Positions 40,643-53,025 of a DNA stretch of 64,000 bases are shown here, piece after piece (the stretch's first letter is position 1; each line of letters starts with the position of its first letter). The DNA comes from Myxococcaceae bacterium (GTDB lineage Bacteria; Myxococcota; Myxococcia; Myxococcales; Myxococcaceae). Made by a program: the position numbers and the translations under genes. The notes beneath the pieces were generated by a model, which ran no database searches, was not told where the DNA came from, and saw only the letters and a list, made by a program, of their open reading frames with translations. The stretch spans positions 1-64,000 of the forward strand of contig RPRB01000004.1 in NCBI GenBank assembly GCA_003818285.1, written 5' to 3'.

Positions 40643-42387
40643 GGCTGCTCGGGCACGTCCTCTCCCCCAGGGACGTGCGCGCGCTGCCGGAGCACGAGCT
40701 ACCCGCGCTGTGCGCCGAGCTCCGGGAGGAGATCATCTCCATCTGCGGCCAGGTGGGCGGGCATCTCGGCGCCTCGCTGGGCGCGGTGGAGCTCATCGTC
40801 GGGCTCCACCGGGTGTTCCACGCTCCCGAGGACGACCTGGTCTTCGACGTGGGACACCAGGCCTACGCGCACAAGCTGCTCACCGGCCGCGCGCCCCGGA
40901 TGCACACCCTCCGGCAGGAGGGCGGGGTCGCGCCGTTCCTCGATCCCCGCGAGAGCCCCTTCGACGCCTTCCCCGCCGGCCACGCCTGCACCTCGGTGAG
41001 CGTGGCGCTGGGCATGGCACAGGCGCGCGCACGGACCGGAGCGCCCGGCCGGGCGGTGGCCATCGTCGGCGACGGCGCGCTCACCGGGGGGCTGACCTTC
41101 GAGGGGCTGAACGACGCGGGTGCCAGCGGGCTGCCGCTGGTGGTGGTGCTGAACGACAACGGAATGTCGATCTCCGCCAACGTGGGCGCGGTGGCCCGGA
41201 TGCTGGCCGGCCCAGGGGCGCGGACCTTCTTCGAGGCGCTGGGCTTCACCTACCTCGGTCCGGTGAACGGGCACGAGCTGGGCGAGCTCCTTCCGGCGCT
41301 GACCGAGGCGCGCCGGAGCCGCCGGCCGGTGCTGGTCCACGTCCGGACCGAGAAGGGGCGGGGGCTCGCCGAGGCCGAGGCGGACGTCGCCACCCGCGGC
41401 CACGCGATGGGCCCGTACGAGATGCGCGACGGGAAGCTGGTTCGCAGCCGCCACGGGCAGCCCACCTGGTCCGACGCGGTGGCCGACGCGCTCGGCCGGG
41501 CGATGGAGCGAGACCCGCGGGTGGTGGTGGTGACGCCCGCGATGCTGGAGGGCTCCTCGCTCACCGGACTCGTCCGGCGCTTCGGGCCCCGGGTGCACGA
41601 CGCGGGCATCGCCGAGCAGCACGCGGTGACGCTGGCTGCCGGGCTCGCCGCGCGGGGGATGCGGCCGGTGGTGTGCATCTACAGCACCTTCCTCCAGCGC
41701 GCGCTGGACCAGCTCATCCACGACGTGGCGCTGCCGGGGCTGCCGGTCACCCTCGCCATCGATCGTGCCGGGCTGGTCGGCGCGGACGGGGCGACGCACC
41801 AGGGCACGTACGACCTGGCCTTTCTGCGGCCGCTCCCCGGGCTGCGGCTCTACGTGCCGACACTGGCAGAGGACGTGGACGCGGTGCTGGCGACGGCGCT
41901 GTCCGGGCCCGGGCCGGCGGCGTTCCGGTTCCCCCGCGGGACGCTCCCGACCACCCCGGCGTCGATCCACGTCGAGCCGGGGCCGGTGAGCGGTGCGCGC
42001 TGGCTCCGGCGCCCGGACGGTGCGGTCGCGGCGATCGTCACGCTGGGGCCGCTCGGGCTCGCGGCGCTCGAGGCGGCCGCGTCGCTCGACTTCCCGACGG
42101 CGGTGCTCGACGTGCTGGCGCTCGCGCCGCTCGACGTCGAGAAGGTGCTCCAGGCCTGTGCCACGGGGAACGTCGTGACGGTGGAGGAGGGGACGACCCA
42201 TGGCGGCCTGGGCAGCGCGGTGCTCGAGCTGCTCGCGGCGCGCGGGCTGACGGCCCGGGTGAGGACGCTCGGGCTCCCCGACGCCCCGGTGCCGCACGGG
42301 GACGCGCGCGCGCAGCGCCGCGCCCTGGGTCTCTCGCCAGAGGGCATCGCCAGCGCCGTGCGCTCGCTCGTCGCTGGCCCCCGGTAG
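40639..42387 (+). CDS. dxs: 1-deoxy-D-xylulose-5-phosphate synthase, shortened linker
   Basis: Dxs condenses pyruvate and glyceraldehyde 3-phosphate with thiamine diphosphate, the first step of the MEP isoprenoid pathway. The product is 582 residues; the family is usually 620-640. FDVGHQAYAHKLLTG, the thiamine site IVGDGALTGGLTFEGLN with VVLNDNGMSIS, the catalytic AEQHA and the C-terminal transketolase domain are all present. The shortening maps to between SANVGAVARMLAG and FFEALGF, where the Escherichia coli enzyme has a flexible stretch of some 35 more residues. Expression is coupled to ispA through the GTGA overlap. Confidence 0.93.
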   Translation: MRLLGHVLSPRDVRALPEHELPALCAELREEIISICGQVGGHLGASLGAVELIVGLHRVFHAPEDDLVFDVGHQAYAHKLLTGRAPRMHTLRQEGGVAPFLDPRESPFDAFPAGHACTSVSVALGMAQARARTGAPGRAVAIVGDGALTGGLTFEGLNDAGASGLPLVVVLNDNGMSISANVGAVARMLAGPGARTFFEALGFTYLGPVNGHELGELLPALTEARRSRRPVLVHVRTEKGRGLAEAEADVATRGHAMGPYEMRDGKLVRSRHGQPTWSDAVADALGRAMERDPRVVVVTPAMLEGSSLTGLVRRFGPRVHDAGIAEQHAVTLAAGLAARGMRPVVCIYSTFLQRALDQLIHDVALPGLPVTLAIDRAGLVGADGATHQGTYDLAFLRPLPGLRLYVPTLAEDVDAVLATALSGPGPAAFRFPRGTLPTTPASIHVEPGPVSGARWLRRPDGAVAAIVTLGPLGLAALEAAASLDFPTAVLDVLALAPLDVEKVLQACATGNVVTVEEGTTHGGLGSAVLELLAARGLTARVRTLGLPDAPVPHGDARAQRRALGLSPEGIASAVRSLVAGPR

Positions 42388-42513: not shown

Positions 42514-45500
42514 GTGACCGACCGAGCGTCCCCGACCATCCGTCCGAAGAAGGAGCGCCTCGACGTGCTCCTGGTCGACCTCGGCCTCGCGCCCACCCGC
42601 GCCCGGGCCCAGGCCCTCGTGCTCGCCGGCCAGGTGGTGGTCGACGATCAGCGCGTCGACAAGCCCGGGACCCGCGTCTCCACCGACGCCGAGGTTCGCC
42701 TCAAGGGCGAGCCCATGCCCTACGTCTCCCGAGGCGGGCTGAAGCTCGAGGCGGCCCTGAGGCACTTTCAGCTCGACGTCCGGAGCGCGGTCTGTGCGGA
42801 CGTCGGGGCGAGCACCGGAGGCTTCACCGACTGCCTCCTCCAGGCCGGCGCCTCGAAGGTGTACGCGCTCGACGTCGGCCGCGGTCAGCTGCACGCCCGC
42901 CTGCGGAGCGACCCGCGGGTCGTCCTCCGCGAGGGGGTGAATGCGCGTCACCTGGGCCCATCCGACCTCCCCGAGCCGGTCGCTGTCCTGGTGCTAGACG
43001 TGAGCTTCATCTCACTCACGTTGGTTCTCCCGGCGACGGTTCCGCTCCTGGTCCCGGGCGGGGTGACGGTGGCCCTGGTGAAGCCGCAATTCGAGGCGGG
43101 GCGGGAACAGGTGGGGAAGGGCGGGGTGGTGCGCGATGACGCGGTGCGAGCCGAGGCGGTGGCGCGGGTGCGTGCATGCATGGAGCAGCTCGGGCTCGTG
43201 CCCGTCGGCGCCCTGGAATCCCCGGTTCATGGCCCGGCCGGAAATCGCGAAATTCTCCTGGTGGCCCGGGCTCCCTGGAGACGGCCCGACCGCCCCATCG
43301 GTGTCGGTGAGGACTCCCTGACGGAGCGCTGGTCAGTGCCGAGAAAATCTAGGAAAATTGGAGCTCAGATGAACGGGGAGAGTTCCACGCCGGCCCTCGC
43401 GCGATCGCCGGAGACGGCAGGGGACCGCGAACGTCGCATCGCCGAGCGCATGGCGATGCTCCTGGACATCACCCAGGCGGCGACCTCATCCCTCGAGCTG
43501 GAGAAGATCCTCAAGATCGCGGTCGAGAAGGTGAGCCAGGTTCTCCCCACCGACCGGTGCTCGGTCGTCCTGGTGGACTCGCCCAGCTCCACCGAGGCGG
43601 TCGTCATGGCCACCCGGGAGCGCGACGACTACCGACCCATCACCATCGACCTGTCCAAGTACCCGGAACTCCGACGATCGCTGCAGACCCGCGAGGCGAC
43701 CTACATCGAGGACGCGCTGGTGGACCCCCTGATGGCCGACGTGATGCCCGCCATCGCCCCCCTCGCGGTGCAGAGCATCCTGGTCCAGCCCCTGATCAGC
43801 CAGGACGACCTGGTGGGAGCTCTGTTCCTTCGCCTGTCCAGGAGGCGAGGGGCCTTCGGCCCGGAAGAGCAGGAGTTCGCCAAGGCGGTCGCGGCCGCCC
43901 TCGCGAACTCGGTCCGGAACGCGAAGCTGCACGCCTCGGTCCAGAGGAAGCGCGACGACCTCGAGCTCGCCTACGTCGAGCGCTACCGGGAGCTGACCGA
44001 GGCCAACCGGCGGCTCCGCGAGCTGGCCCGCTTCAAGGACGAGCTGATCGCCATCATCAGCCACGACCTCCGGGCACCGCTTCAGGTCACGCTCGGGCAT
44101 GGCCGGATGCTGGAGGACGCGAATCTCCCCGGCGACCTCCGGACCTCCGCCGAGGCCATTGTCCGGCAGTCGCGGAAGATCCTGAAGATGGTCGAGTCGC
44201 TCCTCGACCGAGGGAAGGGAGAGCAAACCCGGGTCGCGCTCGACGTGCAGCTCCTGGACGTGAGCCGCGTGGCGCGCGACTGCGCGTTCGAGCTGGAGAT
44301 CCTCGCCGCCGAGCGAGGGGTGACGCTCAAGGCCCACGCCCCCGAGCGGCTGCCGGTGATGGGAGACGAGCTGAAGCTCCGCGAGGTGCTCCAGAACCTG
44401 ATCACCAACGGCCTCGAGCACGCGGCGAAGAACGGCACCGTCCTTGTCGAGGGCGAGGTGCTCCCCCGGCCCGACGGCCCGGTGGTGAAGGTGGTCGTCC
44501 AGGACGACGGCCCCGGGATGCCCGAGGAGCAGATGCATCTCGTGTTCGACCGGTACCGCCACGGTCCCGGGGGGACCGGCCTCGGGCTGGCCATCTGCAA
44601 GGAGTTCGTCGAGCTGCATGGCGGGGAGATCTGGGCCGAGCGCCCGGCCGACGGCGGCTGCGCCTTCGTCTTCACCCTCCCCCTCGCCCAGGACGACCGG
44701 AAGGTGGTCCCCAAGCTTCAGGCGCTGGGCGACGAGCAGCAGCCGCGCGTGCTCATCGTCGAGGACGAACCGGACATCGCCGCCGTGCTGGAGGGCATCC
44801 TCCGCAAGCGGTACCGGGTGGAAGTGGCCCGCGACGGGCGCGAGGGCGTGGCGAAGGTGCACGCGCTCCACCCCGACCTGGTGGTGATGGACGTGTTCCT
44901 CCCCCACCTCGACGGGCTCGATGCCGTCCTCTCGCTCAAGGCCTCGAGCGACACCGCTGACATCCCGGTGATCCTGGTGTCGGCGCAGGTGGGAGTCGCC
45001 GACCGGGTGCGGGCCCTGAATCTCGGCGCGGTCGACTACCTGGCCAAGCCGTTCCATGCCTCCGAGCTCCTCCAGAGGGCCGAGCGCGCCCTTTCGGTCA
45101 ACAAGCGCCGCGCCGCCGCGCCGGAGGCGGAGGCCACGACGGTGGGCGTGGCGGACGCCGAGACGGGATTGCTCGACCGGCGCGGGCTGGTCGCGCGGCT
45201 CACCCAGGAGGCGGCGCGAGCCCGGCGCTACGGCCGGCCGCTGTCGCTGGCGGTGGCCCGGACGGACGCGGTCCAGCCGGAGCTCTTGCGGACCGTGGCC
45301 GCGCGGATGCGCGAGCGCCTCCGGCAGCCGGACGTGCTCGCCCACCTCGGGCAGGGCACCTTCGCGGCGCTCCTTCCCGAGTGCACCTCCGAGCAGGCCA
45401 TGGCGGTGTTCGGCCGCGTGGAATCCGACCTCCACGCCTCCACCAGCCTGAAGTGCCACGTGGAGGTCGCCGAGGTGCCCGGACGCGAGCTCCCGGAGGC

Positions 45501-45540
45501 GGTGCTGGACCACCTCCTCGAGCGCCAGCCGGCGGGCTGA
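42514..45540 (+). CDS. tlyA: TlyA-type rRNA methyltransferase fused in frame to a GAF-kinase-receiver-GGDEF protein
   Basis: One open frame of 1008 codons covers two proteins that are normally separate. Residues 15-250 are TlyA, the 2'-O-cytidine rRNA methylase: S4 domain (RLDVLLVDLGLAPTRARAQ), SAM site ADVGASTGGFT, and catalytic K77, D162, K190, E246. A polar linker follows. From Met286 there is a GAF domain (about 310-470), HisKA with H517 in ISHDLRAP, an ATPase domain (N632, DDGPGMP, GGTGLGLAI), a receiver with D793, and a GGDEF-like end where GGDEF reads GQGTF, so it should not make c-di-GMP. A good internal start lies at Met286 (ATG 43369, GGAG five bases before). Either a true fusion or a lost tlyA stop with the kinase also made separately. 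dxs lies 126 bases upstream; a GCTAAGA box is at 42496-42502. Confidence 0.85.
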   Translation: MTDRASPTIRPKKERLDVLLVDLGLAPTRARAQALVLAGQVVVDDQRVDKPGTRVSTDAEVRLKGEPMPYVSRGGLKLEAALRHFQLDVRSAVCADVGASTGGFTDCLLQAGASKVYALDVGRGQLHARLRSDPRVVLREGVNARHLGPSDLPEPVAVLVLDVSFISLTLVLPATVPLLVPGGVTVALVKPQFEAGREQVGKGGVVRDDAVRAEAVARVRACMEQLGLVPVGALESPVHGPAGNREILLVARAPWRRPDRPIGVGEDSLTERWSVPRKSRKIGAQMNGESSTPALARSPETAGDRERRIAERMAMLLDITQAATSSLELEKILKIAVEKVSQVLPTDRCSVVLVDSPSSTEAVVMATRERDDYRPITIDLSKYPELRRSLQTREATYIEDALVDPLMADVMPAIAPLAVQSILVQPLISQDDLVGALFLRLSRRRGAFGPEEQEFAKAVAAALANSVRNAKLHASVQRKRDDLELAYVERYRELTEANRRLRELARFKDELIAIISHDLRAPLQVTLGHGRMLEDANLPGDLRTSAEAIVRQSRKILKMVESLLDRGKGEQTRVALDVQLLDVSRVARDCAFELEILAAERGVTLKAHAPERLPVMGDELKLREVLQNLITNGLEHAAKNGTVLVEGEVLPRPDGPVVKVVVQDDGPGMPEEQMHLVFDRYRHGPGGTGLGLAICKEFVELHGGEIWAERPADGGCAFVFTLPLAQDDRKVVPKLQALGDEQQPRVLIVEDEPDIAAVLEGILRKRYRVEVARDGREGVAKVHALHPDLVVMDVFLPHLDGLDAVLSLKASSDTADIPVILVSAQVGVADRVRALNLGAVDYLAKPFHASELLQRAERALSVNKRRAAAPEAEATTVGVADAETGLLDRRGLVARLTQEAARARRYGRPLSLAVARTDAVQPELLRTVAARMRERLRQPDVLAHLGQGTFAALLPECTSEQAMAVFGRVESDLHASTSLKCHVEVAEVPGRELPEAVLDHLLERQPAG
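43346..43371 (+). promoter_or_regulatory. Internal ribosome site and start inside the tlyA-kinase frame
   Basis: Just before ATG 43369-43371 is TTGGAG at 43358-43363, a good ribosome site with five bases of spacing, in a sharply AT-richer patch (AAAATCTAGGAAAATT at 43343-43358) unlike the surrounding coding sequence. This is what an ordinary intergenic gap looks like, and it begins the kinase domains neatly. The frame is nevertheless open across it. Confidence 0.55.
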
Positions 45541-45613
45541 CGTTTCCTGCCGGGGGTGACGGGCAACCCCCCGGGGGTGCCTGCTAGGCTTCGAGGTCCC
45601 CGGACTTCCCGTC

Positions 45614-47440
45614 GTGCTCGCCTCTGCCCTCGCTGCTCTCGTCCTCCTGGGCGCCTCGCCGGCGCATCCCCGGGTGGATGTCTCGGCGATGCAGGAGGCC
45701 ATGGCAGCGCCCACCGACGACTACTCGTCCGCCTCGGCGTATGCCCACTTCCTCCGCGCCCGGCTCCTCGCGCTGCAGGGGGAGCACGCCCGGAGCGTGG
45801 AGCAGCTCCGGCTCGCGCTCGCCTCCGACCCTGGCCGCGCCGAGCTGGTTCTGGCCCTCGCCGAGGCGCAGGCCCGCTCCGGCGCCCCGGCCCGAGGCGA
45901 GACCACCGTGCGCGGGCTCCTCGAGCGGAAGCCGGACCATGTTCCGGCGCTGCTCTTCCTCGGGCGGCTGCTCTTCGAGACCGAGCGGCCGCAGCGGGCG
46001 CGCGAGGTGCTCGAGCGGGTGCGGAAGCTCGCTCCCCGGGAGCAGGAGCCGTACCTGCTCCTGGCGGAGATGTCGCTCGAATCGGGTCACCCGCAGGATG
46101 CGGTGCGGACGGTGCAGGCCCTGGCCGACCTGAACCGCGACACCACCGGTCTGAGGCGCCTCGGAATGGCGTTGCTCGACCGCGGTGAGCACGAGACTGC
46201 CCGTGTCCTGCTCGAACGGACGGTGCAGATCGACCCCGGGGACGCCGAGGCGCAGGGGGCCCTCGGCGAGGCGCTGGAGGCGCTGGGCCGCCCGGCGGAG
46301 GCGGACGCCGCGTACGCCCGGGCGCTGGAGCGCGACCCGGATGCGCGCGAGGTGCTCCTGCGCGCGGGCCGGCTGGCGCTCCGCTCCGGGGCGGAGGCGC
46401 GCGCGCGGGCGTACCTGGACCGGCTGGCCTCGCTGGATCTCGGACCGGAGCAGTCGCTGCGGATCGCCCTGACCTGGCTCTCGGCAGGGAAGCCCGTTCC
46501 CGCCATCCGGGTCCTGGAGCAGGCGAGGGCCGGGAGCGACGATCCACGCCTGCTGCTCGCGCTGGGGCTCGTGCAAGGGAAGATCGGACGCTGGGCGGAC
46601 GCCGCCCGTGCGTACGCGCAGGTGCCGGTCGGGGCCCCGGGGTGGAAGGACGCGGTCGTGCAGCGGGGCCTCGCGCTGGCCCGGGCCGGGGAGCCCGCGC
46701 GGGCGGAGCGGGTCACCTCCGAGGCGCTGAAGCAGGCGCCGGGCGACGTGGCACTCGAGGCCGGCCACGCCGCGGTGCTCGAGGCGATCGGCGAGGCCGG
46801 CCGGGCCGAGCAGTTCCTCCAGGCACGCATCCGCGCCTCGGGCAGCACCGAGCTGGTCACCGCTCTCTCGCAGATCTTCTCCCGGACCGGGGCACACGCC
46901 GAGGCGGTGGCGGTGCTCACCGAGGCCCTGAAGGCGCACCCCCGGGACGAGGAGCTGCTCTACGCGCTGGGCACGGTGCTGGAGCGGAGCGGCGACACGC
47001 AGCAGGCGCTGACCCGGATGCGCGAGCTCCTGGAGGTGAATCCCCGGAACGCCGCCGCGCTGAACTTCATCGGGTACACCCTGGCCGAGCACGGCGAGCA
47101 GCTCGAGGAGGCGGAGCGGCTCGTGCGCCGGGCCCTGGGCATCCATCCCGAGAGCGGCGCCTACCTCGACTCGCTGGGCTGGGTGCAGTTCCGGCGGGGG
47201 GACGTGGTGCGCGCGGCGAGCACGCTGGAGCGCGCCGCGGAGCTCGAGCCCGACGAGCCCACCATCCTCGAGCACCTCGGCGACGCGTACGGCGGAGCGA
47301 GCCGGAGGGACGCCGCGGTCGGGGCCTACCGGCGGGCACTGGAGGCGATGCGCACCGCCGACGATCCCACGGCGCGCGAGCGGAGCGCGGTGGTGGAACG
47401 GAAGCTCAAGGCGCTCACCTCGCCGGTCGCGGACCGCTGA
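45614..47440 (+). CDS. Secreted tetratricopeptide-repeat protein
   Basis: The 608-residue product has a short N-terminal signal (LASALAALVLLGASPA) and then about fifteen TPR-like helix pairs through most of the length, for example AYAHFLRARLLALQGEHARS and ALNFIGYTLAEHGEQLEEAE. The C-terminal repeats (YLDSLGWVQFRRGD, ILEHLGDAYGG) resemble those of large bacterial TPR proteins involved in outer-membrane assembly or secretion. No enzymatic domain is visible. GTG start; a TAGGCT -10-like box lies at 45585-45590. It probably forms a periplasmic scaffold. Confidence 0.85.
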   Translation: MLASALAALVLLGASPAHPRVDVSAMQEAMAAPTDDYSSASAYAHFLRARLLALQGEHARSVEQLRLALASDPGRAELVLALAEAQARSGAPARGETTVRGLLERKPDHVPALLFLGRLLFETERPQRAREVLERVRKLAPREQEPYLLLAEMSLESGHPQDAVRTVQALADLNRDTTGLRRLGMALLDRGEHETARVLLERTVQIDPGDAEAQGALGEALEALGRPAEADAAYARALERDPDAREVLLRAGRLALRSGAEARARAYLDRLASLDLGPEQSLRIALTWLSAGKPVPAIRVLEQARAGSDDPRLLLALGLVQGKIGRWADAARAYAQVPVGAPGWKDAVVQRGLALARAGEPARAERVTSEALKQAPGDVALEAGHAAVLEAIGEAGRAEQFLQARIRASGSTELVTALSQIFSRTGAHAEAVAVLTEALKAHPRDEELLYALGTVLERSGDTQQALTRMRELLEVNPRNAAALNFIGYTLAEHGEQLEEAERLVRRALGIHPESGAYLDSLGWVQFRRGDVVRAASTLERAAELEPDEPTILEHLGDAYGGASRRDAAVGAYRRALEAMRTADDPTARERSAVVERKLKALTSPVADR

Positions 47441-47555
47441 GCGCCTCGGCAAACCCGGAAAGCAGACCGACGTGACTTCCGGTGGACCTTCGTCAGATCT
47501 CCCGGGCATGATTCCCGCCCCGCGGAGACGTTTCCCAGGGGCCGTCTTCTCCCCC

Positions 47556-48407
47556 ATGAACCACCACCAGGAAGGCCACTTCTCGGCGCCGGACGGCACG
47601 CGTCTGTGGTTCGAGCGCGACGTGCCGGACGGGGCGCGCGCGCACATCGTCCTGGTGCACGGATACGGGGACCACCTCGGCCGCTATCGCACCTTCCGCG
47701 ACGCGATGCTCGCCGAGCGGTTCGCCGTGCACGCCTACGACGTCCGCGGCCACGGCCGGAGCGACGGTGCCCGCGGCGCGGTCCGCGATTTCTCCGAGTA
47801 CGCCCGGGAGCTCGAGGCCTTCGTCCGCTCCTCCCATGCGCTCGCCGGTGGGCTGCCGATCTTCCTCGTCGCCCACAGCCACGGGGCGCTCATCACCCTC
47901 GGGTGGCTGGCCGGCGCCGGCGCGGAGACCGCGCGCACCCTGGGAGTGCGTGGGCTGGTCCTCTCCGCGCCCTACCTCGGTCTCGCCTTCACGCCCCCGG
48001 CGTGGAAGACCGCGCCGGCCGTGCTGCTCTCGCGCCTCCTCCCCGACGCTCCCATCCCCACCGGCATCTCCTCGGCGGACCTGAGCCGGGACGAGACATG
48101 GCAGCAGAGCACCGATCGGGACCCGCTCTATGGCCGCAAGGCAACGCCGCGCTGGTTCACCGAGCACACCCGCGTGCAGGGCGAGGTGCTGGCCGCCGGG
48201 GCGCGGCTCCGGATTCCAGTGCTGCTGATGCTGCCCGGCGAGGACCGTCTCGCCTCCGCGGCGGTGTCGCGCCGGTGGTTCGAGACGCTGACCACACCCG
48301 ACAGGCGGCTCCGGGAGTGGCCGTCCATGCGACACGAGATCTTCAACGAGCTCGGCAAGGAGGACGTGTACGCCGAAACCTCTCGCTGGATCTCAGAGCA
48401 TCTCTAG
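47556..48407 (+). CDS. Monoacylglycerol-lipase-like alpha/beta hydrolase
   Basis: The 283-residue serine hydrolase resembles bacterial monoacylglycerol lipases and lysophospholipases. VLVHGYGDHLGRY gives the oxyanion-hole region, VAHSHGA the nucleophile elbow (AHSHG instead of the usual GxSxG), PGEDRLAS the acid and MRHEIFNE the histidine. The motif order is complete. ATG 47556 fits the conserved N-terminus (FSAPDGTRLWFERDVP); in-frame ATGs upstream add an unlikely Pro/Arg-rich leader. Its stop sits 28 bases before the first bactofilin, so the genes may share a transcript. Confidence 0.88.
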   Translation: MNHHQEGHFSAPDGTRLWFERDVPDGARAHIVLVHGYGDHLGRYRTFRDAMLAERFAVHAYDVRGHGRSDGARGAVRDFSEYARELEAFVRSSHALAGGLPIFLVAHSHGALITLGWLAGAGAETARTLGVRGLVLSAPYLGLAFTPPAWKTAPAVLLSRLLPDAPIPTGISSADLSRDETWQQSTDRDPLYGRKATPRWFTEHTRVQGEVLAAGARLRIPVLLMLPGEDRLASAAVSRRWFETLTTPDRRLREWPSMRHEIFNELGKEDVYAETSRWISEHL

Positions 48408-48435
48408 CGTACGGTTTTCGACGACAGGGGCATTG

Positions 48436-48780
48436 ATGGCACAAGCCGATCAGGTCGGAGTCATCGGGAAGGGCATCGTCATCCGGGGGAACCTCACCGG
48501 CGGCGGGAACCTGGTCATCGAGGGCCGGGTCGAGGGGCAGATCGCCCTGAAGAATCACCTCACCATCGAGAACACGGGCCGGGTGCAGGCCGATATCCGT
48601 GCGGACGAGCTGACCATCAACGGCGAGGCCAGCGGCAACATCGACGCGAGCTCCCGGGTGGCCATCTCCGCGTCGGCGAAGGTTGCGGGGGACATCAAGG
48701 CCCCCCGGGTGGTCATCGAGGACGGCGCGGTGTTCAACGGCTCCATCGAGATGGACGTCAAGCTGCCCGAGGACATCTAG
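48436..48780 (+). CDS. bacN: Bactofilin (BacN-like)
   Basis: Bactofilins polymerise into cytoskeletal filaments through a right-handed beta-helix. The 114-residue protein shows the repeating GNLTGGGNLVIEGRVEG / GNIDASSRVAISASAKVAGDI pattern with the GxxxG-spaced turns of the family. With the next two genes it matches the BacN-BacO-BacP trio of Myxococcus xanthus, which lines the subpolar regions and positions the ParABS chromosome-segregation machinery. The name is by synteny and family. Confidence 0.85.
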   Translation: MAQADQVGVIGKGIVIRGNLTGGGNLVIEGRVEGQIALKNHLTIENTGRVQADIRADELTINGEASGNIDASSRVAISASAKVAGDIKAPRVVIEDGAVFNGSIEMDVKLPEDI

Positions 48781-48877
48781 CGCTCAGCGGGCGTGAGGGC
48801 GCCGGAGCGAGCGCCGAAACAGGTTCAAACCGCCCCCGAGGCACGCCGGAACGGACACGGGAAGGACGGAACACAAC

Positions 48878-49201
48878 GTGGCGAACACGGTCATCGGATC
48901 CAGCATCGTCATCGACGGGGAGATCTCGGGCGACGAGGACCTCGTCATCCAGGGCACCGTGAAGGGGAAGATCTCCCTGCGCGAGAGCCTCTTCGTCGAG
49001 GGCTCCGGCGTGGTGGAGGCCGACATCGAGACCCAGAACGTGGAGATCGCCGGCCGCGTCACCGGGAACATCCAGGCCACCGACAAGGTCGAGCTCAAGG
49101 CCGACTGCCGCGTGGTGGGGGACGTGAAGGCGCCGCGCATCCTCATCGCCGACGGCGCGAGTTTCAAGGGCAACGTCGACATGGACGTGAAGGAACGCTG
49201 A
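48878..49201 (+). CDS. bacO: Bactofilin (BacO-like)
   Basis: Second bactofilin of the tandem, 107 residues, GTG start. The beta-helix core runs DGEISGDEDLVIQGTVKGKI to KAPRILIADGASFKGNVDMD with almost no tails, as in short polymer-forming bactofilins. Close relation to its neighbours suggests local duplication. It is separated by three bases from bacP. Confidence 0.87.
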   Translation: MANTVIGSSIVIDGEISGDEDLVIQGTVKGKISLRESLFVEGSGVVEADIETQNVEIAGRVTGNIQATDKVELKADCRVVGDVKAPRILIADGASFKGNVDMDVKER

Positions 49202-49204
49202 CCC

Positions 49205-49810
49205 ATGGCCGCCAAGGATCTCGTCACGAGCGGCAACACGGTCATCGGCCCATCCATCCTCATCAACGGCAAGCTCACCGGTGACGAGGACCTCACGGTC
49301 CGCGGACGGGTCGAGGGTGAGCTTTCCCTCACCAAGACCCTCATCGTCGAGCCGTCCGGGGTGGTGAAGGCCAACGTCACGGTCAAGAACGCCGTGGTGA
49401 GTGGAGTGGTGGTGGGGAACATCCAGGCCACCGAGAGCGTGGAGCTCACCCAGGAAGGCCGGATGGTGGGCGACATCCGCGCACCGCGGGTCATCATCAT
49501 CGACGGGGCGAGCTTCCGCGGCCGTGTCGACATGGGCGAGCTACCGCCCGGCCGGAGCCTCCCCGAGCGCACCACCCCGCGGGCCCAGCTGCGTCCCACG
49601 GTGCGGAGCCTGCCCGCGCCGCCTCCGCGCCCGGCCGCGGCCGCCGCCCGTCCGGGCAACACCGGTGCGACCGTTCCGGCGAGGAAGCCCGGAGGCATGC
49701 CGGGCATCGTCCGCGCCGAGACCGCCCGTCCAGCACCGCCGGCGCCTCCCGCGCCGCCGGTGGTAGCCGCCGGGGCCAAGAAGAAGGTCGTGCTGAAGAA
49801 GAAGAAGTGA
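49205..49810 (+). CDS. bacP: Bactofilin with long basic C-terminal tail (BacP-like)
   Basis: The 201-residue product has the bactofilin core in residues 10-115 and then an 85-residue Pro/Ala/Arg-rich tail ending [10 protein letters not shown]. In Myxococcus BacP the C-terminal tail reaches out of the filament to bind partners such as PadC and the small GTPase SofG; the basic end here is consistent with that. It lies between bacO and the padC-like gene in the same order as in Myxococcus. Confidence 0.87.
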
Positions 49811-49865
49811 CCCTCGGGCACGTTCCCGGAGGGCCCCCGCCCGGGGTAGCGTGCCGACGAGGTCC

Positions 49866-50678
49866 ATGGAGACGCGCGAGCACGACGAGATGAGCTCGGA
49901 ATCCTCCGAGGAGCGTGCCGGGCCCGACGATGGACCGGGCACGGCGCCCTCCAGCCCGGAGGCCATCGACGCGGACGGTGCCGTCGCCGCGGACACCGCC
50001 ATGCCCACACTCCCTCCGCGGGTGGAGCCGGCGCCCACCCCACGGCTGGAGCGTCCGCCGGAGGTGGAGGAGCGGCTCGTGCCCCTCGAGCGGCTGGACG
50101 AGGACGACACCTTCCAGCTTCGCCCGGGCGGAGACGTGGGCCGGCTGGCGATGGACCTGGCGCGGCTGGGACAGGCCTTTCCGGTGGACGTGCGCCGTCG
50201 CGAAGGCAGCGACCGTTTCCAGCTGGTCTCGGGCTTCCGGCGCGTGGCCGCGCTCCGGTTCCTGCGCCGCACGTCGGTGCTGGCGCGCGTGCATGCGAGC
50301 CTGTCGGACGAGGACGCGCTGCTGGTGGCCCTGGCCGGGGTCCTCCATGCGGCCTCGCCCACGCCCGAGGAGCTGGCAGATCTCGAGGCGAGACTCGAGC
50401 AGGAGGGCCGGCTCTCGGCGGCCGCGCGGGACATGCTCGGACGGGCGCGGGAGACGGACGACGCGCTCGCGCCCGAGTCGGTGGAGGGCGCGGAGCAGGA
50501 GGTCGACGCCGACGAGCTGGCCGCCGAGCTCACCGCTCGCATGGCCGAGCTGAACCAGGACCTGTCCTTGCTCGCCCCGGTGTTCGACGCTCTGGAGCCC
50601 GGCCGCCGGGCCGAGCTGCTCCAGCAGCTGCGCTACGCGGCCGAGCTGGTGGCGTACTTCGACCATGAGGAGTCCTGA
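49866..50678 (+). CDS. padC: ParB/Srx-domain adaptor, PadC-like
   Basis: The 270-residue protein has a Pro-rich N-terminal region (residues 1-75), a ParB/sulfiredoxin-like domain (about 76-170) with the nucleotide-contact motif [12 protein letters not shown] (GxxRxxA type), and an acidic helical C-terminus. It lacks the helix-turn-helix of true ParB. PadC of Myxococcus has the same domain, binds CTP, and tethers ParA to bactofilin scaffolds; the gene follows bacNOP there, as here. CTP binding is therefore expected but not proven. ATG 49866 is preferred to GTG 49851; a TAGCGT box is at 49847-49852. Confidence 0.8.
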
Positions 50679-50682
50679 CCCC

Positions 50683-51243
50683 ATGCCCCTGGACCGGGAC
50701 CGCGCGCGGCTGCTCGAGCTGCTGACCCAGCTGTCGTTCGAGAAGCGCCGGGTGACGCTCTCCTCGGGGAAGGAGAGCGACTTCTACATCGACTGCAAGC
50801 GAACGGTGCTCACCGCCGAGGGTCACTTCCTGGTGGGGCGGCTCCTGTGGCGGGACATCCAGCGACTCGCGCCCGCCGCCGCCGCGGTGGGCGGGCTCAC
50901 CCTGGGGGCGGACCCGCTCGCCTCGGCGGTCAGCTACACCAGCTACCTCGCCGGATCGCCCATCCCCGCCTTCATCGTCCGCAAGGAGCCGAAGGGCCAC
51001 GGCACCGGCGAGTGGATCGAGGGGCGCAGCCTCATCGGCGATCGGGCCGAGGTCGCGGTGGTGGAGGACGTGGTCACCACCGGGGCCAGCACGCTCAAGG
51101 CGATCGAGCGGGTGGAGGCGGCCGGCCTTCGCGTGCGCTGCGTCTTCGCGCTGGTGGATCGGCTGGAGGGCGGTCGGGAGGCGGTCACCCAGAAGGGGTA
51201 CGGACTGTCGACCCTCTTCACCCGGAGCGACTTCCTGCCGTGA
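50683..51243 (+). CDS. pyrE: Orotate phosphoribosyltransferase
   Basis: PyrE joins orotate to PRPP to give orotidine 5'-phosphate in pyrimidine synthesis. The 186-residue protein carries the PRPP-binding loop VAVVEDVVTTGAST, the substrate loop with RKEPKGHG, and SGKESDFYIDCK near the start. GAGGAG at 50667-50672 sits ten bases upstream of ATG 50683; an alternative ATG at 50665 overlaps padC. Adjacent to padC by four bases, it is probably translated from the same message. UMP and then CTP are downstream products of PyrE, and PadC binds CTP in Myxococcus. Confidence 0.95.
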   Translation: MPLDRDRARLLELLTQLSFEKRRVTLSSGKESDFYIDCKRTVLTAEGHFLVGRLLWRDIQRLAPAAAAVGGLTLGADPLASAVSYTSYLAGSPIPAFIVRKEPKGHGTGEWIEGRSLIGDRAEVAVVEDVVTTGASTLKAIERVEAAGLRVRCVFALVDRLEGGREAVTQKGYGLSTLFTRSDFLP

Positions 51244-51929
51244 GGGTCGCGCCGCTGCTTCTCGCAGTGGCCGCCGGCGGATGTGCCGCGGTGCCGCCGG
51301 CCATCGGTGAGCCGGGGGCGGAGGTCCCGGACCGCAAGGCCGAGGCGAGCTACCAGGAGGCGCTGTCCCGGGTCACCGAGCACCGGGAGGTGTACTCGGG
51401 CATCGACACGCAGCTGTTCTGCGCGGCCACCTACCAGAGCGCGGAGTTCCGGGAGGCGCGCGTCCGGCGCCAGGCCCTGTTCCAGACCTGGCCGGAGCCG
51501 AAGCTCGACGAGGCGCTGGCCCGGGAGCGGGCCGAGGCCGCGCAGGTGCACGAGCTGGTGTTCGGGGTGAGCATCGTCGACCGCCGGTTCGACGACTTCG
51601 ACTCGAAGAACACCATCTGGCGGCTCAGTCTCGCCACCGATCAAGGCGAGGTCACTCCGCTCGCGGTCCGGCGAGTGGGGCGCGCCAACCAGGACCTGCG
51701 AGCGTATTACCCGTACCTGGGCGACTTCTGGACCATGTACACGGTGCGCTTCCCGGTGGCCGTCGCCGGACGGCCGCTGGTGGCGCCCACCACCCGTGCG
51801 CTGTTGTTCCGCATGTCCTCGACGCAAGGACAGGTGGAGATGGCGTTCCAGGTGGAGACGCGCACCGCCGCCGCGCCGTCCTCGCCGCCGGCCTCTGCAG
51901 TTCCGCCGTCGCCTCCGGCGCCGCGCTGA
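51240..51929 (+). CDS. Lipoprotein of unknown function
   Basis: The 229-residue product starts with MRVAPLLLAVAAGGCAAV, a lipoprotein signal with Cys in AGGC. The mature part is alpha/beta with FGVSIVDRRFDDFDSKNTIW and VRFPVAVAGRPLV, and ends in a Pro/Ser/Ala-rich tail. I do not recognise a family. Its GTG start overlaps the pyrE stop (GTGA), so it ends the bacN-padC-pyrE message, and it converges on the TonB-like gene 22 bases away. Confidence 0.65.
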   Translation: MRVAPLLLAVAAGGCAAVPPAIGEPGAEVPDRKAEASYQEALSRVTEHREVYSGIDTQLFCAATYQSAEFREARVRRQALFQTWPEPKLDEALARERAEAAQVHELVFGVSIVDRRFDDFDSKNTIWRLSLATDQGEVTPLAVRRVGRANQDLRAYYPYLGDFWTMYTVRFPVAVAGRPLVAPTTRALLFRMSSTQGQVEMAFQVETRTAAAPSSPPASAVPPSPPAPR

Positions 51930-51951
51930 CGGCGACGCGCGGCCACCAGAG

Positions 51952-53025
51952 TCAGTAGACGCGGAGGAGGAGCACGCCGCAGCCCGCTCCGGCGCGGTAG
52001 AAGGCCCACTCGGTCCGGGTCCCGTCCGGATGCAGGCCCGCACCCTGACGCGCCGGGGGAGGGGGGACCGCCGCGAGCGCCAGCGCTGCGTGCTCCACCA
52101 CGTACGCGTCGAACACCTTGTCCCCGCTCGAGGCCACGAGCTCGGTCGAGGCGATGCTCCCGTCGGCGCGCTGCACGATGCGCAGCACCGCCACCGGCTC
52201 CCCGGAGGAGGCCCGCTGGATGAGTCGCTGGGCGGCGAAGCTCGGCTGGACGGCCATGGGCCCGAGCTGGTTGGCGACGAACTCCTCCATCCGACCGGTC
52301 ACGTCCTGCACGTCGCGGGCGGGCATGCGCTCGCCCTTCGGTGGATCGCGCGAGGAGTTGGCCTCCTCCAGAGCGGCGAGCCAGGCGTTGATCCACCGCT
52401 GCCCCGGGGTGAGGTCTCCGTGCTTCGGGCCGCCGCCCGGTGGAGGGGGGCCCATGTGAGACTGGAGCGCGCGCCGGTACTCCTTGAAGTAATCGTCCAC
52501 CCCGGTGGCGACGAGGCGCTCGGCGAGGCCGTCCCGGCGCATCGTCTCCACCCGCTCGAGCACCCGTTTTCCTTCCACCTCGGGGCTATCGGGACGGTCG
52601 GGGGCGGTCGACGCGCCCGAGTCTCCGGGCGGAACCGGTCCTGCGCCGCGGGCGACCGCGCCGCCGGGAAACAGCTGGATGGGCGCGTCCGGAGGCGGCG
52701 CCCGCGGCGGGGTCGCGGGTGAGGGACTCGTGGGCGAGGGCGGCACGGGCGGTCCGTCGCCGATCGAGGGACGAGACGCGGTGCCGGGCGGGGAGGGCGC
52801 GACGGATCGATGCGGCGCCGGGGGCGGATGCGGTCCGGCCCGGTCCGGGGCCGGCCGCGGGGGCAGCGGGCGGAGAGTGATGCGGGTGGCCGGCCGGGGG
52901 GGCGGGAGCTTCGGGGGGTGAACCGACCGGAGGAGCCACAGCAGAAGAGCGGCGTGCAGCAGCAGCGAGACCGCCAGCGCACGGAGCAAGGGTCGCCGCT
53001 GGACGGGGCTCCCGTGCGTCGACAT
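51952..53025 (-). CDS. TonB-family energy-transducing protein
   Basis: The 357-residue protein has a cytoplasmic N-terminus, one membrane helix (ALAVSLLLHAALLLWLLRS, residues 16-35), a Pro-rich periplasmic spacer (about 40-130) and a C-terminal domain with AVLRIVQRADGSIASTELVASSG and VFDAYVVEHAALALA, the TonB C-terminal pattern. TonB transmits energy from ExbB-ExbD to outer-membrane receptors; exbB-exbD are at 33-34 kb. Here the C-terminal domain is slightly divergent and ends with an unusual Cys/Arg/Tyr-containing strand. Expression appears independent. Confidence 0.8.
   Translation of the reverse strand: MSTHGSPVQRRPLLRALAVSLLLHAALLLWLLRSVHPPKLPPPRPATRITLRPLPPRPAPDRAGPHPPPAPHRSVAPSPPGTASRPSIGDGPPVPPSPTSPSPATPPRAPPPDAPIQLFPGGAVARGAGPVPPGDSGASTAPDRPDSPEVEGKRVLERVETMRRDGLAERLVATGVDDYFKEYRRALQSHMGPPPPGGGPKHGDLTPGQRWINAWLAALEEANSSRDPPKGERMPARDVQDVTGRMEEFVANQLGPMAVQPSFAAQRLIQRASSGEPVAVLRIVQRADGSIASTELVASSGDKVFDAYVVEHAALALAAVPPPPARQGAGLHPDGTRTEWAFYRAGAGCGVLLLRVY

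Follow-up and report, generated by a model that had tools for sequence, protein, structure and literature searches.

The locus lay on the + strand of a 64,000-nt window, which is the whole stretch of DNA analyzed (Myxococcaceae bacterium, contig RPRB01000004.1; class Myxococcia, hereafter the class), and contained the following features:

45614 to 47440, + strand: TPR-repeat protein gene (open reading frame), upstream part of the conserved block
47556 to 48407, + strand: alpha/beta hydrolase (Hydrolase_4) gene, upstream part of the conserved block (PF12146, E 6e-55)
48436 to 48780, + strand: bacN, bactofilin (PF04519, E 1e-27)
48878 to 49201, + strand: bacO, bactofilin, GTG start (PF04519, E 1e-26)
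49205 to 49810, + strand: bacP, bactofilin, with a long tail ending in a 12-residue stretch (letters not shown; PF04519, E 3e-24)
49851 to 50678, + strand: padC, predicted CTP-binding adaptor of ParB/Srx fold, GTG start (PDB 6ryk, E 3.3e-64)
50668 to 50673, + strand: GAGGAG, Shine-Dalgarno sequence of pyrE, inside padC
50683 to 51243, + strand: pyrE, orotate phosphoribosyltransferase (TIGR00336, 124.4 bits against a cut-off of 106.8; PDB orotate phosphoribosyltransferases, E 1e-32)
51240 to 51929, + strand: conserved lipoprotein gene, overlapping the end of pyrE by 4 nt (GTGA)

Genes were separated by 97 nt (bacN-bacO), 3 nt (bacO-bacP), 40 nt (bacP-padC) and 4 nt (padC-pyrE). The padC stop (TGA, 50676 to 50678) was followed after those 4 nt by the pyrE ATG at 50683, and GAGGAG was 9 nt 5' of that ATG; another in-frame ATG (50665) had no comparable site. 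The first-pass annotation had placed pyrE four bases behind padC with its ribosome site inside the end of padC, and had recognized the Myxococcus order bacN-bacO-bacP-padC, all of which agreed with these coordinates and with the three PF04519 matches and the 6ryk match. An alternative in-frame ATG of padC was present at 49866. The PRPP-binding loop (VVEDVVTTGAS) and the catalytic K/H loop (VRKEPKGHG) of PyrE aligned with PDB 5hkf. The lipoprotein had no match in Pfam, NCBIfam or PDB, and its structure prediction, made from two sequences, had a pLDDT of 45. The tight run is longer than first described, with the TPR and hydrolase genes before bacN and the lipoprotein gene after pyrE; the TPR gene adjoined the hydrolase gene in 20 of the 21 class loci with full flanks and both genes.

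Farther upstream in the window, a TlyA-like rRNA methyltransferase and a GAF/histidine-kinase/receiver protein formed a single open frame of 1008 aa with no stop (42514 to 45540), the two parts of which mapped in relatives as separate adjoining matches. ARAGORN called a tRNA at 40742 to 40833, with its anticodon unassigned (cgct).

Residues 54 to 271 of PadC matched the M. xanthus PadC ParB/Srx structure (6ryk), and 121 of 213 positions (57%) were identical to the M. xanthus PadC ParBC domain; no Pfam match was above threshold. Judged by its sequence, the window protein is the PadC orthologue. The gene order and the long BacP tail were those of M. xanthus bacNOP-padC (Lin et al. 2017, PMC5703909), but the N-terminal region of the window PadC was much shorter than in M. 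xanthus. Box I (LGQ-FPVDVR) and a further box of 11 residues (letters not shown) were conserved, and both CTP-binding motifs were present, with phenylalanine at both catalytic positions. The window PadC thus resembles canonical ParB CTPases in its ParB/Srx fold, its C-motif-like box I and its GxRR box II, and differs from them in that Q58 and E102 of Caulobacter ParB both correspond to F, which has also been described for the M. xanthus protein (PMC8367383), and in that padC is not beside parA. PadC binds CTP, and ParA prefers the CTP-bound form (PMC7333895); conservation of the motifs makes CTP binding by the window PadC likely. PadC is without noticeable CTPase activity (PMC8367383), and published work finds that it undergoes no switch-like change (PMC12704722). 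Of the initial description of PadC as a CTP-switched adaptor, CTP binding was therefore supported by the conserved motifs, but switching by the window PadC is not indicated.

The class survey comprised 147 genomes, some of them fragmented, with PadC in 129 and a pyrE match in 138; whole genomes were used, as a contig scan with a single PadC sequence had given one close relative. padC and pyrE adjoined on the same strand in all 123 genomes having both, so that the pair, for which the first-pass annotation had proposed a synteny check, is not peculiar to this genome. Further adjacent pairs, cut by contig ends, were present in G068 and G128. Contamination or sampling as the source of the adjacency was rejected, because closed genomes of one contig, G043, G104, G013 and G143 among them, also had the two genes side by side. 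Because the PadC of G104 was identical to the 6ryk chain at 204 of 214 positions, and G104 has the padC-pyrE arrangement, the arrangement very probably occurs in the model genus Myxococcus as well. Clustering of bacNOP with padC has been described as conserved in Myxococcales, with pyrE unmentioned in the main text (PMC5703909); beyond that description, pyrE is part of the run throughout the class, and bactofilin-pyrE occurs also without padC outside it.

Attachment of padC to pyrE (26 of 26 class loci) was more constant than its attachment to bacP (21 of 26). The pair was still together in G137, with bacNOP on a different contig, and in G024, G040 and G144, where a single bactofilin gene was found in the genome, apart from padC. 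These four genomes also raise the question of the role of PadC without a nearby scaffold. This strict adjacency, kept even where bacNOP was gone or elsewhere, together with CTP-binding motifs in nearly all PadC and the preference of ParA for PadC-CTP (PMC7333895), favors the proposal, raised in the first-pass annotation, that pyrE behind padC ties UMP and CTP supply to CTP-bound PadC, and chromosome segregation to pyrimidine status. The absence of noticeable CTPase activity in PadC (PMC8367383) already argues against it. The metabolic position of the enzyme does so too. The product of PyrE is OMP, from which all pyrimidine nucleotides derive, so that the enzyme feeds all RNA and DNA synthesis, and the CTP-committing gene, pyrG (CTP synthase), was megabases from the locus in all 12 closed genomes checked.

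Outside the class, 48 Myxococcota genomes were searched for PyrE and bactofilins. In 20 of them, from 11 families, pyrE immediately followed a bactofilin gene; 17 of the 20 carried two or three bactofilins there, usually the full triplet. padC was absent from these clusters, which had no room for it. The pyrE start was usually at -4 to +45 nt from the bacP stop. The lipoprotein gene often followed pyrE outside the class too. No other neighbor of pyrE was as constant in Myxococcota, and genomes with no bactofilins at that place had it as well; among the 26 class loci with full flanks, 25 had it no more than 1.5 kb from pyrE. Matches of the PadC profile outside the class were set aside as ParB-like, as they were partial and covered the N-terminal ParB region only, with the exception of one full-length PadC-like gene (G159, L049 4274 to 5044), which adjoined a ppx/gppA-type gene and shared its contig with neither the bactofilin triplet nor the pyrE of that genome. 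The bactofilin-pyrE link would thus be the older one and padC the later arrival, because the link occurs without padC in 11 other families, and the proposed coupling to CTP supply is not supported in that the association of pyrE is not specific to PadC. No description of the bactofilin-pyrE linkage was found in the searchable literature.

The BacP tails pointed in the same direction. Of 34 class loci, 27 had a basic motif at the end of BacP (KKKVVVKKK-like; 49770 to 49807 in the window), and a KKKVVVKK tail was also present in most of the padC-less BacP upstream of pyrE. That the motif is common to both supports orthology of BacP inside and outside the class at the sequence level. In M. xanthus, the C-terminal extension of BacP is the part that binds PadC (PMC5703909); the basic motif appears to be older than PadC.

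padC and pyrE were also found apart, in both directions. Three families of the class (f2, f4 and f5; 13 genomes) were without bacNOP-padC and kept pyrE in the block, the loci read having the order TPR-hydrolase-pyrE-lipoprotein, with the lipoprotein gene beside pyrE in all but G038. In a concatenated-gene tree f2 and f4 nested within the class, pointing to loss of bacNOP-padC in those two families. Conversely, five class genomes (G138, G139, G141, G142 and G093) kept padC without a linked pyrE, and their PadC retained both box I and box II. A different PyrE type was encoded elsewhere in G138, within a pyrC-pyrE-pyrF run, and in G093; none was found in G139, G141 and G142. Therefore PadC needs no linked pyrE, and pyrE needs no PadC to stay in the block. 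With the separations in both directions, the padC-less bactofilin-pyrE loci and the distant CTP synthase gene, coupling of CTP supply to PadC is very unlikely to account for the arrangement.

In Caulobacter, CTP synthase filaments act with crescentin. With this example of a pyrimidine enzyme that takes part in a cytoskeleton, and with a bactofilin-pyrE link that is phylum-wide and appears older than padC, PyrE could itself associate with the bactofilin polymer as client or partner, the ancient link being with the bactofilins and not with PadC. However, pyrE stayed in the block after loss of bacNOP (f2, f4 and f5), and other PyrE types served as replacement where bactofilins persisted: in G187, G192 and G193, outside the class, the bactofilins were followed by the lipoprotein gene, and another PyrE type was elsewhere. 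PyrE as a client of the polymer is accordingly regarded as highly improbable. A broader version, in which the phylum-old link is functional, PyrE (or orotate and UMP production) working with the bactofilin scaffold, and padC was recruited into that operon, is considered very improbable.

From bacN to pyrE the genes were on the same strand with gaps of 3 to 97 nt, and a sequence scan found no terminator-like site within this run; they probably form one transcript. A promoter scan at the locus was empty, the sigma-70 consensus being uninformative in such a G+C-rich genome, and no Rfam element was found in 45000 to 53000. When 41 class loci were read at base level, 27 had a pyrE start overlapping the padC stop, mostly by 4 nt, and in 37 the pyrE ribosome site was within padC. 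Translation of pyrE is probably coupled to whichever gene precedes it. In the enterobacterial rph-pyrE operon, pyrE is likewise translated close behind a gene unrelated to it, and translation of that gene affects how pyrE is expressed. There, an attenuator is between the two genes, whereas here pyrE is directly behind the unrelated gene, 4 nt apart or overlapping, with no terminator-like site found. Coupling to padC would explain the fidelity of the padC-pyrE pair without a regulatory link.

The pair might also be neighbors kept together through low rearrangement, with no shared expression, as conservation of the wider block (TPR, hydrolase, lipoprotein and nadB genes) would allow. In the same loci, however, other flanking pairs decayed (lipoprotein-LOG, 10 of 25; nadB-LT, 9 of 21), and the 4-nt overlaps of padC and pyrE across families would be hard to keep without co-translation; an accident of history of this kind is considered unlikely.

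It is considered likely, instead, that an old bactofilin-pyrE block received padC at a later time, and that the pair has been kept by shared expression and not by a CTP circuit. The ancestral Myxococcota block would have been (TPR-hydrolase)-bacN-bacO-bacP-pyrE-lipoprotein, and padC would have entered it, behind bacP and ahead of pyrE, no later than the radiation of the class. Translation of pyrE would have been coupled to the preceding gene, padC here and bacP or the hydrolase gene elsewhere, and the persistence of padC-pyrE would result from shared expression of an essential-type gene in an ancient housekeeping operon. Insertion rather than many losses is probable by parsimony, the trees being of single genes or short concatenations, with no robust species tree, and we infer that a specific CTP link is absent. 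The tighter attachment of padC to pyrE than to bacP, and the lineages that kept padC-pyrE after loss or relocation of bacNOP, leave room for a real relationship between padC and pyrE.

The comparative control corrected a tempting reading, in which a gene for CTP supply beside a CTP-binding protein implied a connection between the two, and brought to light a deep bactofilin-pyrE cluster of Myxococcota. For genetic work in this group, knock-outs of padC or bacP could act polarly on pyrE. If a functional link between scaffold and pyrimidine synthesis were true, cytoskeleton, chromosome segregation and nucleotide status would be under one expression unit. That the bactofilins and pyrE were probably together first, and PadC came afterward, suggests that PadC joined a BacP which already had its basic tail.
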